Shown here piece by piece: positions 14,652-21,938 of a stretch of 64,000 nucleotides of DNA. This DNA is from an uncultured Veillonellaceae bacterium (GTDB lineage: Bacteria; Bacillota; Negativicutes; Selenomonadales; Selenomonadaceae). The notes beneath the pieces are model-generated. The model had not been told where the DNA came from, ran no database searches, and saw nothing but the letters and a program-made list of their open reading frames with translations. Location of the stretch: NCBI GenBank assembly GCA_902785705.1, contig CACZZN010000007.1:1-64000 (forward strand), given 5' to 3'. Positions within the stretch are counted from its first letter, which is position 1; every line of letters starts with the position of its first letter. Made by a program: the position numbers and the translations under genes.

Positions 14652-14833
14652 GATTGTTGTCGAATGGTATGGTGCAGGGAACATCAGTGGCCGCCGATAT
14701 TTTCCCCCGCGCCTTGGGATTCTTGGGTTCCAGCGGTTTCGAGGGGAAGCGGGGCAGGAAATCTTCCCGAAAAAGATTTTCCCCCGCAAATCGGCATTTC
14801 AGCCCTTGCGCCGCAAGGGATTTCAAACCAAGG
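14652..14833 (+). promoter_or_regulatory. CRISPR leader region
   Basis: 182 bp between csm5 and the first repeat. It contains two foldbacks (AAATCTT 14759-14765 with 14773-14779; CCCTTGC 14803-14809 with 14813-14819, a 3-nt loop, ending 15 nt before repeat 1) and a direct repeat ATTTTCCCCCGC near 14697 and 14776. Leader status is inferred from array orientation. It is unusually GC-rich for a leader. No clear promoter was seen. Confidence 0.5.
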
Positions 14834-15685
14834 ATTTCGAAATCGAATCTCCGTAAGGAGACGGAAACCAGGCAAAGGAGCAGAAGCAGAAGGAGCGCGA
14901 GGCAAAGCTATTTCGAAATCGAATCTCCGTAAGGAGACGGAAACTGTAGTATGCTGTACCGGATGATTCGTTGTATTTGAGAATTTCGAAATCGAATCTC
15001 CGTAAGGAGACGGAAACAACCACACCCACACATTCATCATAGCTTCTTGCATAGTTTCCAATTTCGAAATCGAATCTCCGTAAGGAGACGGAAACGATAG
15101 TTGAGATTTGCCCTCTAAAATCTCTTCACTCATCCGATTTCGAAATCGAATCTCCGTAAGGAGACGGAAACTCCTTATCTTCATCAACTGCCAGTTTTCT
15201 CTTGTCATGATTTCGAAATCGAATCTCCGTAAGGAGACGGAAACCGTCCACATAAATCAACCCTTGCAACTGTCGTATCGTAGCATTTCGAAATTGAATC
15301 TCCGTAAGGAGACGGAAACCCTATCACTTGTAAAATCTCCCTCAAATCTTGCAACAACAGATTTCGAAATCGAATCTCCGTAAGGAGACGGAAACATAGT
15401 ATCCATTTTCATTCATGCAGTGATAAGCATTTATTTCGAAATCGAATCTCCGTAAGGAGACGGAAACTAAGAGTTCCCGATAAAGCTGTTCACAATCTGT
15501 TCCATATTTCGAAATCGAATCTCCGTAAGGAGACGGAAACGCTTCGAGCATAGAGGTTATGGCGGTTATTGTGTCTGCGGATTTCGAAATCGAATCTCCG
15601 TAAGGAGACGGAAACCATCTTCATACGCGCCTTCATGATTTTCCAGTTTTATTTCGAAATCGAATCTCCGTAAGGAGACGGAAAC
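14834..15685 (+). CRISPR. Type III-A CRISPR array, 12 repeats and 11 spacers
   Basis: 35-nt repeats start at 14834, 14910, 14983, 15061, 15137, 15210, 15285, 15361, 15433, 15506, 15581 and 15651. All are identical except the seventh, which has one C-to-T change. Spacers are 35-43 nt. Each repeat opens with the 10-nt palindrome ATTTCGAAAT and carries a hairpin TCTCC-GTAA-GGAGA. It ends in ACGGAAAC, the same 8-nt handle known from Streptococcus thermophilus Csm crRNAs, which sets transcription on the plus strand with the leader at 14652-14833. Cas6 cleavage is expected at the 3' base of the stem. Spacer 1 (14869-14909) is purine-rich. Confidence 0.97.
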
Positions 15686-15999
15686 AATATGTTGAAAAAT
15701 CGTTTACAGGGGAAACTGAGGAAATCGATTATCATTTTTATCTGCCCGTTCCGAAGGAGAAGGTGGACTACATGACTTTCCAGATGAGAATTGATGAAGA
15801 GCGGGATGAAGCGCGGGAAGAAGGACGCAAGGAAGGACGCGAGGAGGGGCTCAAAGAGGAACGCCATAGCGGCATCCGTGCCCTGATCGCAACGATGAAG
15901 GAATTATCCGTGAGTCAGACACAGGCAGTCGAACAGGTGATGAAGCGCTATTCCCTGTCTCATGAGGATGCTGTTGCTGTTGTTCAGACCAATTGGTAA
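15686..15999 (+). pseudogene. Truncated Rpn-family (PD-(D/E)XK transposase-like) remnant
   Basis: The frame ending at 15999 reads through the last repeat and encodes a C-terminal tail only. It has a predicted ETEEIDYHFYLPVPKEKVDY stretch, then a highly charged RDEAREEGRKEGREEG coiled segment, then a short helical end with SVSQTQAVEQVMKRYSLS. This tail is typical of Rpn/transposase-like nucleases, whose N-terminal nuclease domain is missing here. An internal GTG (15763) could allow a 78-aa product, but no function is expected. Its presence between array and cas1 suggests a past insertion or rearrangement. Confidence 0.55.
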
Positions 16000-16030
16000 T
16001 GCTCATTCATCACGCTGGATTCTGCCATCC

Positions 16031-16052
16031 ATTCTTCGTAAGGAGACAAAGC
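16031..16052 (+). repeat. Orphan degenerate CRISPR-repeat fragment
   Basis: ATTCTTCGTAAGGAGACAAAGC lines up with the last 22 nt of the repeat, with the core CGTAAGGAGAC intact (shown here in pieces: ATTCTT, CGTAAGGAGAC, AAAGC). It lies 345 bp after the end of the array. It may be the old terminal repeat of a once longer array. Confidence 0.5.
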
Positions 16053-16055
16053 GAA

Positions 16056-16087
16056 GGGGCTGTCGCATTATTACGTGCGACAGCCCC
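16056..16087. terminator. Strong hairpin between array and cas1
   Basis: A perfect 12-bp stem (16056-16067 with 16076-16087; arm GGGGCTGTCGCA) and an 8-nt loop. There is no T-tract on the plus side. It lies 26 nt before the cas1 start, so it may end array transcripts or affect cas1 translation. Confidence 0.5.
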
Positions 16088-16113
16088 GTCTGTGTAACCA
16101 TGGGGGTGTGTTA

Positions 16114-17202
16114 GTGAGTATTTTATATGTTTCCGATGCAGGAACAGAACTTGGTATTGAGGAAAATCGGATTGTTGCGCATTATCCCGATGGGATGAAG
16201 CGCACGATACCGATTGAGACGGTGGAGAGCATTACGCTTTTGACAAAGGCGCATATCTCGGTGCCTTGCATGGAGGCGTGCTTGAAACGGGGGATTTCCG
16301 TATCTTTTTTCTCGAAGGGAGGGCGGTATTTTGGGAGGCTGCTTTCCACAGGGCATGTGAATGCGGCGTTGCAACGGAAGCAGAGCGCACTTTACGATAC
16401 ACCGTTTGCCTTGGCTCTTGCCAAAAGAATCATCCATGCAAAGACCCGAAATCAGATTGTCGTATTGCGGCGCTATGCCCATAGCAGGGGTGTCGATGTT
16501 GAGGATTTGATATCCAAGATGCTGGTTTTTGGCAAGAAATTGGACACTGCGGATACGATGGAGCAGTTAAGCGGATATGAAGGGCAGTGCGCGAAACTGT
16601 ATTTCCGTGGGCTTGCCAGATGTATTGAGCCGGAATTTGCATTTCATGGCAGGAGCCGTCGCCCGCCGATGGATGAATTCAATTCGCTCATCAGCCTTGG
16701 GTATTCTATCTTGATGAATGAGATTTATGCAGAAATTGAAAATAAAGGACTGAATCCTTACTTCGGATTCATGCACAGAGATGCAGAAAACCATCCGACT
16801 TTGGCAAGCGATATCATCGAGGAATGGCGAGCTGTGCTCATTGATTCGATGGCAATGAGCCTAATCAACGGACATGAAATCTCGAAGGAGGATTTCCGCA
16901 TGGGAGATGATGAGCATCCGGGATGCTTTTTGACGAAAAACGGACTGAACATTTTCTTGAAAAAACTGGAAAAGAAACTTCAGTCGCAAGTGAAATATCT
17001 CTCCTATGTGAGCAATGCGATCAGTTTCCGGCGAGCCATTGCCTTGCAGCTTGGAAGGCTTTCGGAGGCAATTCGAAGGGAGGAGGCAATATCGGGAAAT
17101 ATTGCGATAGTGAGGACAGCATACGTGTTTATCGTATTCATGGAAGGGGGCAGGTCTATCAGTGGGGACGGAAGGAAGAGGCGGAGGATGAGGAGGTGGT
17201 GA
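16114..17202 (+). CDS. cas1: CRISPR integrase Cas1, C terminus altered
   Basis: About 362 aa. Cas1 inserts new spacers together with Cas2. The catalytic set is present: Glu156 in GYEGQ, His221 in GFMHRD, Asp233 in ASDIIEEWR. The GTG 16114 start follows GGGGGT at 16102-16107; a GTG at 16108 is an alternative. Up to about residue 323 (QLGRLSEAIRREE) the sequence is normal. After that it becomes a basic, low-complexity tail ending GRKRRRMRRW that does not look like Cas1. In another frame the same DNA encodes a Cas2-like end, which suggests that a deletion joined the two genes. Confidence 0.88.
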   Translation: MSILYVSDAGTELGIEENRIVAHYPDGMKRTIPIETVESITLLTKAHISVPCMEACLKRGISVSFFSKGGRYFGRLLSTGHVNAALQRKQSALYDTPFALALAKRIIHAKTRNQIVVLRRYAHSRGVDVEDLISKMLVFGKKLDTADTMEQLSGYEGQCAKLYFRGLARCIEPEFAFHGRSRRPPMDEFNSLISLGYSILMNEIYAEIENKGLNPYFGFMHRDAENHPTLASDIIEEWRAVLIDSMAMSLINGHEISKEDFRMGDDEHPGCFLTKNGLNIFLKKLEKKLQSQVKYLSYVSNAISFRRAIALQLGRLSEAIRREEAISGNIAIVRTAYVFIVFMEGGRSISGDGRKRRRMRRW

Positions 17203-17210
17203 TCCTATAG
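17083..17210 (+). pseudogene. cas2: Remnant of cas2 (C-terminal third only)
   Basis: In the frame ending TAG at 17210, the DNA downstream of cas1's last Cas1-like codons encodes IGKYCDSEDSIRVYRIHGRG, followed by a WG motif and EDEEVVIL. DSIRVYRI and the acidic end closing in VIL resemble the last beta strand and C-terminal tail of Cas2 proteins. The N-terminal half with the VxYD motif is absent, and no start codon serves this frame. Calling it Cas2 rests on motif memory and on the position directly after cas1. Confidence 0.55.
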
Positions 17211-17222
17211 GATGCAAACGAT

Positions 17223-17262
17223 GGGCAGGAAATACGGTTTGTTCCTGCCCGTAGTTTACTTT
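17223..17262. terminator. Terminator between convergent cas1 and csm6
   Basis: A 9-bp perfect stem GGGCAGGAA (17223-17231) with 17242-17250, followed by a T-rich run. It lies between two converging genes and may serve both. Confidence 0.65.
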
Positions 17263-18620
17263 TCAAGTTCGTCTTTTACCCATCGGTTGATGGAGTCATA
17301 GATTCCGCGTTGCGAGTTTAATTCTTTTGCTCCATACAACAGGCAAAGCAGATGGTAGAGCGTATGGATGAAATCCATAGAGGAAATTTTTATGCGGGTA
17401 TGGAATTCTGTTTCATCGAGATCCAGTCGTATCGTATGGGCTGTGTTGTTTCGAAGGCCAGGAATATTTTCCAGTTTGTCAAGCTCTGCCATGAAATTTT
17501 GGTAGATTTGCATATCTTTGGTATAGCCTGCCTGAGCCGCATATTGGGAGATATGTTTCAGCAGCAGGAAGGACAGGTCGCTGTCTTTGTATTTTTGGTG
17601 CATCTTGTTCAAATAAATGCTGTCTAAATAAGACAAGAGATTTGGTTCGCGCAGTTCCAAATTTTTTCGTGAGAGATAGTATGTGTCGTTTTTTCGGCAG
17701 TCACATAATTTTTTGACATCCATCTGCAGGTTGATTCGTGTATATTCTTGTAGTAATTCATACAGGAAGGGCGTGCTTTCCAGCAATATATGGTGCAGTT
17801 CCTTGCGGTGGCACTCTATTTGCATCACCAGAAAATATTCCAGGAGGCGTTCCTTTGCACCTCGGAAGGGCGCCAGCAGGATGCTCTTGTATTGCGAGAG
17901 GACCTCCCGGGCTTTTTTGGGCATCAGCCGGAATCTATAGGCAGCATGTTCCAGTAACTTAACGGCCATTGGAGGCATATCCTTGTTTGCCTTTGCAAGC
18001 TGAAACGCTGCTTGATAGTCATAACGGGCGATCAGTGCAAGGATGCGATGCTTATCCGCATAATAGCGCAGGATGCGGAGCGGGGGTTCCACGCAACGGT
18101 TGACGGCATCCTTCTCATCATCCAGATTGTTCTGGAGCAGGGCATCGACATCTTCGTGATCCTTGGTGGCGGGGTTGTCACGGTTGGAGCTGTTTACGGG
18201 CGTTGGAACTTGTATGCCTTTGCACCAGGGTGCATCTACGGAGATGATGGCCATGACAGTTTTCATTTGCGGTGTTCCGGAACTGAGATTCAGGAGGATT
18301 TCCGCATCGGGGAATTTGTCGTGCAGCTCGTAGATTTTTGCCGGAAGGATATGTATGAAGCTATCGTATAGGTGCGGCTCCGTGATGTCCGTGAAGATTT
18401 CTTCTATTTGGATATCCATATGCAGGTTCTGCAACGCGCGCGTATACCGCTGATCCTGGTGCTGTTTCAGCTTCATGTCCTCCGTGTAGAATAGAATGGC
18501 CATGTCAGGCTTATAGTGGCGCACGATATGAAGACAGGCGCCGTCGTAGCAGTTTCGGATGGGATCCGTGTCTCCGATGGGGGAAAATAAGATGCTTCTC
18601 GGTGACAGCTGTTTTTTCAT
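17256..18620 (-). CDS. csm6: Csm6 ribonuclease (CARF-HEPN), cyclic-oligoadenylate activated
   Basis: About 454 aa. The N-terminal CARF domain (residues 1-170) shows SPIGDTDPIRN and NLSSGTPQMK, the ligand-loop signatures. The C-terminal HEPN domain has RNNTAH (Arg390-His395), the RxxxxH RNase motif. In type III systems this enzyme degrades RNA once Cas10 makes cyclic oligoadenylate. ATG 18620 was chosen because GGAG lies 8 nt upstream; a TTG at 18638 would place the ribosome site inside the gene. It is transcribed against the operon from its own promoter, so its dose can be set apart from the effector. Confidence 0.9.
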   Translation of the reverse strand: MKKQLSPRSILFSPIGDTDPIRNCYDGACLHIVRHYKPDMAILFYTEDMKLKQHQDQRYTRALQNLHMDIQIEEIFTDITEPHLYDSFIHILPAKIYELHDKFPDAEILLNLSSGTPQMKTVMAIISVDAPWCKGIQVPTPVNSSNRDNPATKDHEDVDALLQNNLDDEKDAVNRCVEPPLRILRYYADKHRILALIARYDYQAAFQLAKANKDMPPMAVKLLEHAAYRFRLMPKKAREVLSQYKSILLAPFRGAKERLLEYFLVMQIECHRKELHHILLESTPFLYELLQEYTRINLQMDVKKLCDCRKNDTYYLSRKNLELREPNLLSYLDSIYLNKMHQKYKDSDLSFLLLKHISQYAAQAGYTKDMQIYQNFMAELDKLENIPGLRNNTAHTIRLDLDETEFHTRIKISSMDFIHTLYHLLCLLYGAKELNSQRGIYDSINRWVKDELEK

Positions 18621-18683
18621 GTGAAATGCTCCTTTCAAAATGAGCTGTGATGAAGTGATGTTTCATGCAGAAGCACCATTCGT

Positions 18684-18713
18684 TATGTACCTATCGTTTT
18701 CCTGCTATGGCAA
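18684..18713 (-). promoter_or_regulatory. Likely csm6 promoter
   Basis: On the minus strand: TTGCCA (18713-18708), an 18-bp spacer, TACATA (18689-18684), 63 nt before the csm6 start. It is divergent from the nrdD promoter. Confidence 0.45.
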
Positions 18714-18729
18714 TGCACCTTTTTGGCTC

Positions 18730-18758
18730 TTGCCCTTTTGGGGATTCTTTGATACAAT
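18730..18758 (+). promoter_or_regulatory. Sigma-A promoter of nrdD
   Basis: TTGCCC (18730-18735), a 17-bp spacer, TACAAT (18753-18758). The -10 lies inside the first NrdR-like box. Confidence 0.6.
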
Positions 18759-18799
18759 ATATTCTGCTTGTACTAACTGCGAAACACAAGATATAGTGA
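18752..18799 (+). promoter_or_regulatory. Two NrdR-like boxes controlling nrdD
   Basis: Box 1, 18752-18767 (ATACAATATATTCTGC), and box 2, 18784-18799 (ACACAAGATATAGTGA), each match 13 of 16 positions of the known NrdR consensus. Their starts are 32 bp apart, about three helical turns, which is the usual spacing of NrdR box pairs. Box 1 covers the -10, so binding should repress transcription when dNTP/ATP levels are high. Confidence 0.7.
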
Positions 18800-18852
18800 A
18801 AGGATGGGAGAGATACGCTGCAGGGATGGTGGGCGGCGGCATCACGAAATGG

Positions 18853-21111
18853 ATGAATTTGAAGACGGTTACGAAGCGGTCCGGGGATAGAGTGGGCTAT
18901 GATGCAGAGAAGATTTATAATGCTATTTTGGGCGCGAACAAAGATGCGAAAGACCGCATGTCGCGTGAGGATATTTCCGAAGTCGTGAAATGCGTGGAGC
19001 AGGATATCCAGGACAGGGAGAACATCAGCGTCGAGGAGATCCAGGATATCGTCGAGCATGAGCTCATGAAACATGACTTCTATGATATTGCGGCGAAGTA
19101 TATCCGCTATCGTCAGCGCCATGCGGATCGCAGGGCGGCGCAGAAGAATCTCATGGGCGCCTATCGGGATATCTTTTTCGCTGATGCGGTGGACTCCGAC
19201 CTTAAGCGGGACAATGCGAACATCAATACGGACGCGTCCATGGGCATCATGCTGAAATTGGGGGCGGAGGGCGCGAAGCACTTTGTGGACAACTATGTGC
19301 TGCCCGAGAAATTCGCGGAGGCGGACAAGGAGGACTATATCCATATCCACGACAAGGACTTCAGCCTCATTACGTTCAACTGCTGCCAGATCGATCTTTT
19401 GAAGCTGTTTCACGGCGGCTTTTCGACAGGGCATGGCTTCCTGCGCGAGCCGAATTCCATCCGCGCCTATGCGAGCCTTGCCTGCATTGCGATCCAGTCG
19501 AACCAGAACGACATGTTCGGCGGGCAGTCCATCAATGCCTTTGACTATTCCATGGCGGAGGGCGTGAACAAGTCCTTCCAAAAGGCGGTGCTGGACGAGG
19601 CATATAAATCGGTGGTCTACCGTTTTGGGCGCGAAGCGGCGGGAAAGGAAAAGGAATTCCGCGAGAAATTCCATGAGGGGATGGACTTTTCCCATTGCCG
19701 CTATGCGGAGACGCAGGACTCTGACCGCTATCGGGAATCGGTGGAAGCGGTGCGGCAGGCGCTGGAGAAATGGCTGCAGGCGCATGGGCAGTCTTTGGAT
19801 CGTCTGGAGGCGGATGCGCTGGATGTCTATCAGATGGCCTGTGATGATGTGGTGGAGGAGACCCATCAGGCGATGGAGGCTCTCATCCATAATTTCAATA
19901 CGCTGCACAGCCGTGCGGGCGCACAGGTGCCCTTCAGCTCCATCAATTACGGCATGGACACCTCGCCGGAGGGACGCCTTGCCACCAATGAGGTGCTCAA
20001 CGCCATCCAGGCGGGGCTGGGGAACGGGGAGACGCCGATTTTCCCTATCAGCGTGTTCCAGCTCAAGGCAGGCGTAAACTACAATCCGGAGGATCCGAAT
20101 TACGATCTTTTCATCAAGGCGTGCAAAGTCAGCGCCAAGCGCTTGTTCCCGAATTTCGTGAATCTGGATGCGCCCTACAATCTGCAGTACTACAAGCCGG
20201 GAGACTACAACAGCTATGTGGCGACCATGGGCTGCCGCACGCGCGTCATGAGCAATGTGAACGGGCCGGAGGAATCGGGAAGCCGCGGCAATTTCGCGTT
20301 TGTGACCATCAATCTGCCGAAGCTGGCGCTGGAGGCGAAAGGGGATCTGGACAAGTTCTGGGATCTCTTTGACCACTATGTGAAGCTGGGGCATGACTAT
20401 ATCCAGTTCCGTTTGCAGACCATCGAGAAGAAGCATGTGTTCAACTATCCGTTCCTCATGGGACAGGGCGTATGGATGGGCAGCGACAAGCTGAAGCCGA
20501 CGGACAGCATCCGCGATGTGCTGAAGCATGCTTCCTATTCCATCGGTTTCTGCGGACTGGCGGAGTGTCTGGTGGCACTCATCGGCAAGCATCACGGCGA
20601 GAGCGAGGAGGCACAGGAACTGGGACTCAAGATCGTGGGCCGTCTGCGTGAAATGACGGATGCCTATACGAAGCTGGAGCGCAGGAACTGGACCTGCTTC
20701 GGGACTCCTGCGGAGAGCACCGCAGGGCAGTTCCAGCGGGCCAACCAGCGGGTGTACGGCATCATTCCGGGCGTGACGGATCGCGCCTATATGACGAACT
20801 CCTCCCATGTGCCTGTGTACTATAAAATCAAGGCCATCGACAAGATCCGCATTGAGGCGCCCTATCATGCGCTGGAAAATGCGGGACATATTGCCTATGT
20901 GGAGATGGATGGCGATCCCTCGAAGAATGTGAAGGCTTTTGAGGATATCGTGCGCGCGATGCATGATGCCGATATGGGCTATTTCTCCATCAATCATCCT
21001 GTGGATCGCGATCCTGTCTGCGGCTATACCGGCATCATCGAAAACGAATGCCCGCACTGCCACCGCAAGGAAATCGAGCATGGGAGCTTCGTTGTGGACC
21101 GCATGAAATGA
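18853..21111 (+). CDS. nrdD: Anaerobic ribonucleoside-triphosphate reductase NrdD, apparently lacking its glycyl-radical end
   Basis: About 752 aa. It carries an N-terminal ATP-cone (residues 1-95), then the NrdD barrel with family stretches such as IHIHDKDF, HGGFSTGHGFLREP, FGGQS and NFNTLHSRAGAQVPFSS. The zinc-site half DPVCGYTGII...CPHC near the C terminus is present. Class III enzymes continue from here to an RxxGYL glycyl-radical loop and about 30 further residues, but this frame stops after FVVDRMK. No GYL motif occurs in any frame of the next 100 nt. The enzyme would reduce NTPs to dNTPs under anaerobiosis if the radical were supplied. ATG 18853 fits the ATP-cone N terminus; ATG 18826 is an alternative. 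Ribosome sites at both are weak. Confidence 0.88.
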   Translation: MNLKTVTKRSGDRVGYDAEKIYNAILGANKDAKDRMSREDISEVVKCVEQDIQDRENISVEEIQDIVEHELMKHDFYDIAAKYIRYRQRHADRRAAQKNLMGAYRDIFFADAVDSDLKRDNANINTDASMGIMLKLGAEGAKHFVDNYVLPEKFAEADKEDYIHIHDKDFSLITFNCCQIDLLKLFHGGFSTGHGFLREPNSIRAYASLACIAIQSNQNDMFGGQSINAFDYSMAEGVNKSFQKAVLDEAYKSVVYRFGREAAGKEKEFREKFHEGMDFSHCRYAETQDSDRYRESVEAVRQALEKWLQAHGQSLDRLEADALDVYQMACDDVVEETHQAMEALIHNFNTLHSRAGAQVPFSSINYGMDTSPEGRLATNEVLNAIQAGLGNGETPIFPISVFQLKAGVNYNPEDPNYDLFIKACKVSAKRLFPNFVNLDAPYNLQYYKPGDYNSYVATMGCRTRVMSNVNGPEESGSRGNFAFVTINLPKLALEAKGDLDKFWDLFDHYVKLGHDYIQFRLQTIEKKHVFNYPFLMGQGVWMGSDKLKPTDSIRDVLKHASYSIGFCGLAECLVALIGKHHGESEEAQELGLKIVGRLREMTDAYTKLERRNWTCFGTPAESTAGQFQRANQRVYGIIPGVTDRAYMTNSSHVPVYYKIKAIDKIRIEAPYHALENAGHIAYVEMDGDPSKNVKAFEDIVRAMHDADMGYFSINHPVDRDPVCGYTGIIENECPHCHRKEIEHGSFVVDRMK

Positions 21112-21938
21112 GCCGGCAGATCTGTGGGCTGTGTCCGCATCACTGCCGATTGGAGGAAGGGCAGATCGGGCTTTGCAGGGCAAGGGGCAATGTAGATGGA
21201 ACGATTTTGCCGTTGAATTATGGGAAAATCACTTCCATCGCACTGGACCCGATCGAAAAAAAGCCGTTGATGCGCTTCCGGCCGGGGAGTTTCATCTTGT
21301 CGGTCGGCAGCTTTGGCTGCAATCTGCGCTGCCCCTTTTGCCAGAATCACGAAATTTCTCAGGCGGGGCAGGAGTTCCGGCATCAGACCGTGATGCCGGA
21401 GCAGCTGGTGCAGATTGCGGAAACGCTGGCCGCCGAACCCAAAGGGAATCTGGGCGTGGCGTTTACCTACAACGAGCCTTTGATCGGTGTCGAGTTCCTG
21501 CGGGACACGGCCTTTTTGCTGAAGAAGCGGGGCATGAAGGTCGTGCTGGTGACGAACGGCATGATGGAAGAAGCGCCGTTTCGGGAACTGCTGCCGCTGG
21601 TGGATGCGATGAATATCGATCTCAAAGCGTTTCATGGGGAATTCTACCGTTGGATCGGCGGAGACTTGGAAACTGTGAAGCGGAACATTCGGCTTGCGGC
21701 AGGAGCGTGCCATGTGGAGGTCACGACACTGGTGATACCGGGGAAGAACGACAGCGCGGGGGAAATGGCGCGGGAGGCAGAGTGGCTTGCGGGCATATCG
21801 CCGGAGCTGCCGCTCCATATCAGCCGGTATTTTCCGAGATTCCTATCCGAGATCCCCGCGACAGAAGTGTCCGTCATCTATCAGCTGGCAGATGTGGCAA
21901 GGCAGCATCTTTCTCATGTATATGAGGGGAATTGCTGA
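21108..21938 (+). CDS. amrS: Radical SAM enzyme, AmmeMemoRadiSam (AmrS)/PFL-activase-like family
   Basis: 276 aa. The SAM [4Fe-4S] motif GCNLRCPFCQN (CxxxCxxC) lies near residue 70. An N-terminal Cys cluster CGLCPHHC...GLCRAR and the phrase LNYGKITSIALDPIEKKPL are typical of AmmeMemoRadiSam-system radical enzymes, relatives of glycyl-radical activases. Its ATG overlaps the nrdD stop (ATGA), a position usually held by the activase nrdG. Whether this protein activates a glycyl-radical enzyme is open, because the sequence is closer to AmrS than to NrdG. AmrS partners (Memo, AMMECR1) are not in the window. Confidence 0.8.
   Translation: MSRQICGLCPHHCRLEEGQIGLCRARGNVDGTILPLNYGKITSIALDPIEKKPLMRFRPGSFILSVGSFGCNLRCPFCQNHEISQAGQEFRHQTVMPEQLVQIAETLAAEPKGNLGVAFTYNEPLIGVEFLRDTAFLLKKRGMKVVLVTNGMMEEAPFRELLPLVDAMNIDLKAFHGEFYRWIGGDLETVKRNIRLAAGACHVEVTTLVIPGKNDSAGEMAREAEWLAGISPELPLHISRYFPRFLSEIPATEVSVIYQLADVARQHLSHVYEGNC

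Follow-up and report, generated by a model that had tools for sequence, protein, structure and literature searches.

The DNA analysed here, a window of 64,000 nucleotides from an uncultured, anaerobic Veillonellaceae bacterium, very probably encodes the catalytic chain of a class III ribonucleotide reductase, with the glycyl-radical loop supplied by a separate protein of 95 aa as the second piece of the enzyme. Cells cannot do without ribonucleotide reductase; its class III form, which makes DNA precursors in the absence of oxygen, is regarded as one chain that is lost once oxygen cuts its radical loop. What can be read from the sequences is the truncation of NrdD, a partner gene, the co-occurrence of the two, NrdR operators on both genes, linkage to nrdG in relatives, purifying selection, and the apparent status of the pair as sole reductase in closed relatives. 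On balance we favor a wider reading, in which nearly the whole family (Selenomonadaceae) carries the class III radical loop on a subunit of its own, one that is replaceable, regulated by NrdR, and descended from an NrdD spare part found across Bacillota and in phages. Oxygen damage would then cost a ~10-kDa part and not an ~85-kDa enzyme, and the split would have arisen repeatedly, a second NrdD subtype among the cases.

The reductase open reading frame extends over 18640..21111 (+), with a likely start at 18826 that gives a protein of 761 aa, and a stop codon at 21109-21111 (Table 1). As the original prediction had proposed for 20980-21115, the chain stops before the glycyl-radical loop. The C-terminus reads ...HPVDRDPVCGYTGIIENECPHCHRKEIEHGSFVVDRMK-TGA, FVVDRMK being the last residues, and the radical glycine would be expected directly after them; the same end can be given as ...CGYTGIIENECPHCHRKEIEHGSFVVDRMK-TGA, and its TGA is overlapped by the ATG of the next gene (21108). 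Since the Pfam NRDD match covers positions 1-535 of 562, only the final ~27 positions, those of the loop, are absent. The NCBIfam NF005497 score exceeds the family cut-off, and the NxN flap, MGCRTR, and TPAE are all kept in alignment with the solved P. copri enzyme (8p23). By Pfam, NCBIfam, and residue alignment the window chain thus has the core of a class III NrdD, with ATP-cone, thiyl cysteine, and zinc ribbon; the loop, normally part of the same chain, is on another protein. The zinc site VCGY...CPHC was correctly recognized before, but it is complete and not cut off, because the same pattern is found in full-length relatives of the same NrdD subtype. It was also correctly noted that RxxGYL is absent from every frame of the 100 nt 3′ of nrdD. 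Neither reading through the TGA nor shifting frame past 21111 would restore the loop, as all frames lack GYL, and both possibilities were rejected.

Table 1. Features of the truncated nrdD gene and its upstream region (window positions)
Feature	Position	Strand	Basis
nrdD without glycyl-radical loop	18826..21111	+	Pfam NRDD 1-535/562, 569 bits; alignment with P. copri NrdD 8p23; longest ORF opens at 18640
ATP-cone domain	18865..19125	+	Pfam ATP-cone PF03477, 76.6 bits
NxN flap (NAN) above active site	19213..19221	+	motif scan and P. copri NrdD alignment
MGCRTR motif with thiyl-radical cysteine	20227..20244	+	Cys codon 20233-20235 = Cys416 of P. copri NrdD, by alignment
Zinc-ribbon cysteines CGYTGIIENECPHC	21019..21060	+	identical pattern in full-length relatives
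Truncated tail HRKEIEHGSFVVDRMK and stop	21061..21111	+	tail comparison; chain stops 16 residues past last zinc Cys
Two NrdR-box-like sites upstream of nrdD	18752-18767 ATACAATATATTCTGC, 18784-18799 ACACAAGATATAGTGA	.	32 bp start to start

The gene overlapping the nrdD stop encodes a radical-SAM protein of the AmmeMemoRadiSam type (21108-21938, +). It was rejected as a dedicated NrdD partner, since a homologue stands beside nrdD in 0 of 12 relatives. Just upstream of nrdD, the region 14832-18638 holds a CRISPR array of 12 repeats (GATTTCGAAATCGAATCTCCGTAAGGAGACGGAAAC type), followed by a type III-A-like Cas1 (16075-17202, +) and, between Cas1 and nrdD, a Csm6-like CARF-HEPN gene (17256-18638, -).

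The genome from which the window comes is a metagenome-assembled genome (MAG) of 2.0 Mb in 38 contigs, 82% complete. An NRDD-family search of this assembly returned two matches. One is the gene in the window; the other, on contig C18, is a short frame covering profile positions 531-562 only, precisely the NRDD positions missing from the window NrdD. The frame, preceded by a ribosome-binding site, encodes a 95-aa protein (L002:1330-1617, +; MIVNGIDVTVTGVPDISEHEIENYIAYVHENTQEPLSSLHISAAENGQVELGYELRTQKFERIRRITGYLVGTTDRWNNAKRMEEHDRVKHGLQH). Its loop, FERIRRITGYLVG...DRVKH, is placed after a domain of its own of ~58 residues, and the radical glycine is Gly68. NRDD is the sole Pfam family above cut-off for the protein, and the first ~58 residues have no match to NrdD. 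No second full-length NrdD was found by the same search of the 82% complete MAG, and no glycyl-loop motif other than that of the small protein was detected in the truncated NrdD or elsewhere in the genome. The search for a second nrdD or a stand-alone loop protein, suggested with the original prediction, therefore yielded the latter. In the AlphaFold model of the orthologue from Selenomonas noxia (mean pLDDT 76.8), the beta-alpha-beta-beta N-domain scores 84-91 and the loop ~60; such low confidence is expected where a loop folds only inside a partner. A fold search with this model gave no PDB match below E = 0.08.

Truncation of NrdD is common to nearly the whole family. Among 25 sampled genera of Selenomonadaceae, which include Selenomonas noxia ATCC 43541, Anaerovibrio, Megamonas, Mitsuokella, and Schwartzia, a truncated NrdD was found in 23, and the small loop protein in 23 of these 23. 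Of the two remaining genera, G011 encodes NrdD at full length and lacks a small protein with the loop, and in G023 a contig end cuts nrdD. In 87 genomes that are ≥95% complete, nearly all NrdDs of the window type, among the matches listed, stop at profile position 531-541. Since the chains of 23 genera end at about the same point, neither chance nor a local sequencing error accounts for the truncation. Purifying selection acts on both genes, with dN/dS of 0.04-0.15 for the truncated nrdD and 0.01-0.22 for the small gene, dS being saturated in some of the more distant pairs. In Anaerovibrio sp. RM50 (G021/G043) a single small loop protein was observed, and it would have to be shared by two loop-less NrdDs from different clades.

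De novo synthesis of DNA precursors is impossible in a free-living cell that has no ribonucleotide reductase. Seven relatives are available as single contigs (G007, G008, G019, G073, G082, G084, and G109; 99-100% complete), and in all of them both class I/II reductases (PF02867) and any NrdD besides the truncated one are absent. Because cells need a reductase, the truncated NrdD must function there, and judged from these genomes the truncated NrdD and the small protein must be the only reductase of the seven relatives. For the 82% complete MAG itself, the lack of other reductases rests on these relatives.

Oxygen cuts class III enzymes at the radical glycine (PMC3019208). In full-length relatives of the window subtype this glycine lies 17-19 residues past the last zinc cysteine. 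Past that cysteine, most truncated chains of the window's clade keep 16-17 residues, and those of the second NrdD clade of the family usually keep 20. For the subtype without ATP-cone, where the glycine position is 13, the three truncated chains keep 11, 13, and 16 residues. Truncated chains thus stop close to the glycine, that is, at the place of oxygen cleavage. A quick tree of 61 NrdDs, from which the tail was left out, requires six changes between the full-length and truncated states, at least five of them forced by supported branches, which indicates that the state changed several times. From tree and tails together, the loop has apparently been lost in several lineages, each time near the same residue. 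Some truncated NrdDs (L016, L018, L020, L025, L026, L027, and L059) have neighboring cysteines in their tails (e.g., ...PRASCCD, ...CFCC), for which a redox role is possible; the window protein has none.

The gene order nrdD-small-nrdG is found in many relatives; in others the order is small-nrdG, with nrdD elsewhere. In the genome of the window the small gene on C18 adjoins neither nrdD nor nrdG and is flanked by unrelated genes, and the NrdG activase is encoded on another contig (G000:C32:34293-34730; 140.9 bits against a cut-off of 126.1). Both nrdD and the small gene are preceded by paired NrdR boxes, and the NrdR gene is present (G000:C6). When the 2.0-Mb genome was scanned for pairs of NrdR-box cores at a distance of 32 bp, with ≤3 mismatches over 24 specified positions, the result was exactly two sites, at 18754-18797 before nrdD and at C18:36163-36206 before the small gene; the reversed pattern gave 0. 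As the pattern was written with both sites already seen, the informative part of this result is that there is no third site, together with its repetition in relatives. Paired NrdR boxes need a spacer of 14-17 bp (PMC12051234), and the spacing of the window pair agrees with this requirement. Upstream of small genes in the class, the pair was found with ≤3 mismatches in 12 of 26 cases and with ≤5 in 17 of 26 (0.0 and 0.15 expected from Markov-shuffled sequence). In a named set from other groups, the pair with ≤5 mismatches precedes 25 of 62 small genes (0.4 expected). This enrichment ties the small protein to ribonucleotide reduction, even where it stands beside a full-length NrdD, and nrdD and the small gene look as if they were under one common genetic switch.

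Proteins related to the small protein and sharing its N-domain were found in Clostridia, Coriobacteriia (Raoultibacter, Adlercreutzia), Erysipelotrichaceae, and other Negativicutes, in most cases accompanied by a full-length NrdD. A second Negativicutes set has a GYLS loop that resembles the local ATP-cone-less NrdDs, and aligns with the first set over the whole length (E = 8.5e-21). Truncated NrdDs outside Selenomonadaceae whose loci were examined each have a separate loop peptide, in some cases a minimal one that lacks the N-domain. The family also extends to viruses. At 67 of 80 viral-contig loci (L217-L296), the flanks retrieved around the small gene (up to 4 kb) contain no nrdD; at 10 the small gene accompanies a loop-less nrdD, and most of these 10 also have nrdG nearby. 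The viral small protein could be a phage supply of the NrdD radical part, comparable to T4 Y06I for pyruvate formate-lyase (PFL).

It had been considered that the gene is inactivated. If nrdD were broken, either as a pseudogene or by an assembly error near 21095-21115, the cell would rely on another reductase. The chain does lack an essential loop, and the MAG is incomplete; the shared end in 23 genera, the kept catalytic residues, and purifying selection on nrdD contradict inactivation, and for the relatives the closed genomes, seven single contigs without class I/II reductase, refute it. We regard a broken gene as hardly conceivable. It is also very improbable that the small protein serves another glycyl-radical enzyme, or is a regulator, and accompanies truncated NrdD incidentally. 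The isolated position of the small gene among unrelated genes in its own genome would suit such a role, and loop-less paralogues show that the N-domain can exist without the radical loop; however, the loop is of the NrdD kind, with no other Pfam family above cut-off, and NrdR boxes and nrdG adjacency link the protein to ribonucleotide reduction.

A distinctly unlikely alternative, though one with precedent in GrcA and PFL, makes the small protein an optional part for repair after oxygen damage, while the truncated NrdD obtains its radical from another residue or factor. Its occurrence beside full-length NrdD in Clostridia, Coriobacteriia, and other Negativicutes, and the many viral contigs that carry it with no nrdD nearby, are in line with this role. 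Against it, neither the truncated NrdD nor its genome has a further glycyl-loop motif, and a loop protein always accompanies the truncated NrdDs whose loci were examined. A role as repair factor only may fit the species with full-length NrdD, but not the pair in Selenomonadaceae. The second suggestion of the original prediction, that a separate small protein provides the radical part as GrcA does, has instead gained strong support from the loop protein in the same genome, the co-occurrence, the adjacency to nrdG in relatives, and the same paired NrdR operator, all of which point to a two-piece enzyme.

For this two-piece enzyme we infer binding, activation in trans, and catalysis by NrdD together with the small protein. 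NrdD would provide the ATP-cone, barrel, thiyl cysteine, and zinc ribbon, and stop at the would-be radical glycine. The small protein most likely docks on the loop-less NrdD via its N-terminal beta-alpha-beta-beta domain, its FERIRR strand, or both; NrdG would then generate the radical on Gly68 of the docked protein. The RITGYLVG loop would most likely insert into the NrdD barrel and oxidize the cysteine coded by 20233-20235. The simplest reading of its origin is that the small protein arose as a spare part for oxygen-cut NrdD, similar to GrcA or T4 Y06I, and later turned into an indispensable component in Selenomonadaceae and a few further lineages.

The closest known systems are GrcA/YfiD and phage T4 Y06I, which act with PFL (Andorfer et al., 2021, PMC8683613). 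There, too, a small protein has a copied C-terminal glycyl-radical loop, which can replace the original loop in trans, and phages carry such parts as well. Like GrcA/YfiD, the 95-aa protein is a stand-alone duplicate of a glycyl-radical loop (RRITGYLVG); its loop and C-terminus are not homologous to PFL, only NRDD being above the Pfam cut-off. Its predicted partner is NrdD instead of PFL, and, unlike GrcA, it has an N-terminal domain of its own, is NrdR-controlled, and is often encoded in an nrdDG operon. The large chain is encoded without the loop, so that the part appears to be obligatory, whereas GrcA is an optional repair part. Full-length NrdDs of the cone type (PcNrdD, PMC11226230; StNrdD, PMC12662201) share the ATP-cone, NxN flap, barrel, thiyl cysteine, zinc ribbon, and NrdG activase; in PcNrdD from P. 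copri (PMC11226230) the Gly711 loop is in the same chain, while here it is on a separate protein. Catalytic chains coded in two pieces are known for class II NrdJa/NrdJb (PMC9669993) and, from what is cited in PMC3322345, for the class I phage genes-in-pieces NrdA (Friedrich et al., 2007). Compared with these, the piece split off here is the radical loop, to which a domain has been added, and relatives of this piece are found even in species with a full NrdD chain. Split class I and II reductases are thus already known; a search of open-access full text found no description of a separate or stand-alone NrdD radical loop.

It has been proposed that spare parts for glycyl-radical enzymes other than PFL are possible, though unvalidated (PMC8683613), and the two-piece reductase, if true, would answer this question. 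The separate radical subunit would correspond, for class III, to the radical subunit of class I enzymes, loop-less NrdD sequences would not be dead genes, and radical loading by NrdG could be studied in a clean two-component system. Cultured hosts such as Selenomonas noxia and Anaerovibrio allow direct testing.

Several variations in gene structure were observed among the NrdD and loop-protein loci. A second, independent split was found in another NrdD subtype with NrdG2-like activases (L179, L180, L181, and L213), in which NrdD stops after CPKCxAE and a separate peptide of ~45-65 aa, KCEVYSRVVG(Y/F)L..., is encoded nearby. Small-protein paralogues at L186 (G104), L187 (G011), L188 (G109), and L189 (G023) keep the N-domain and the FERIRR strand and have no GYL loop. 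In G011, G104, and G105 such paralogues stand with full-length NrdD; they may have a regulatory role or be spare parts in decay. Long NrdD frames (~860-1550 codons), the profile match of which is split by a long in-frame insert, occur at L190 (G100) and L195 (G123) and in G099, G175, G265, and G284; the inserts are probably inteins. In Eggerthella phage EL753P1 (L216 1850-2600) nrdD lacks the loop, and an unannotated loop-coding stretch ~0.5 kb downstream has its frame broken exactly at FERIRRI/TGYL; a programmed frameshift, decay, and a sequencing error are candidate explanations. One genome (G093) has two copies of the small gene (L184 603-1126, +; L185 707-1716, -), each interrupted between the RITG and YLVG codons. 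No Rfam match to a group I intron was found in these interrupted genes; the longer insert contains an ORF resembling an HNH-type endonuclease, and the inserts look like an intron aimed at the radical site.
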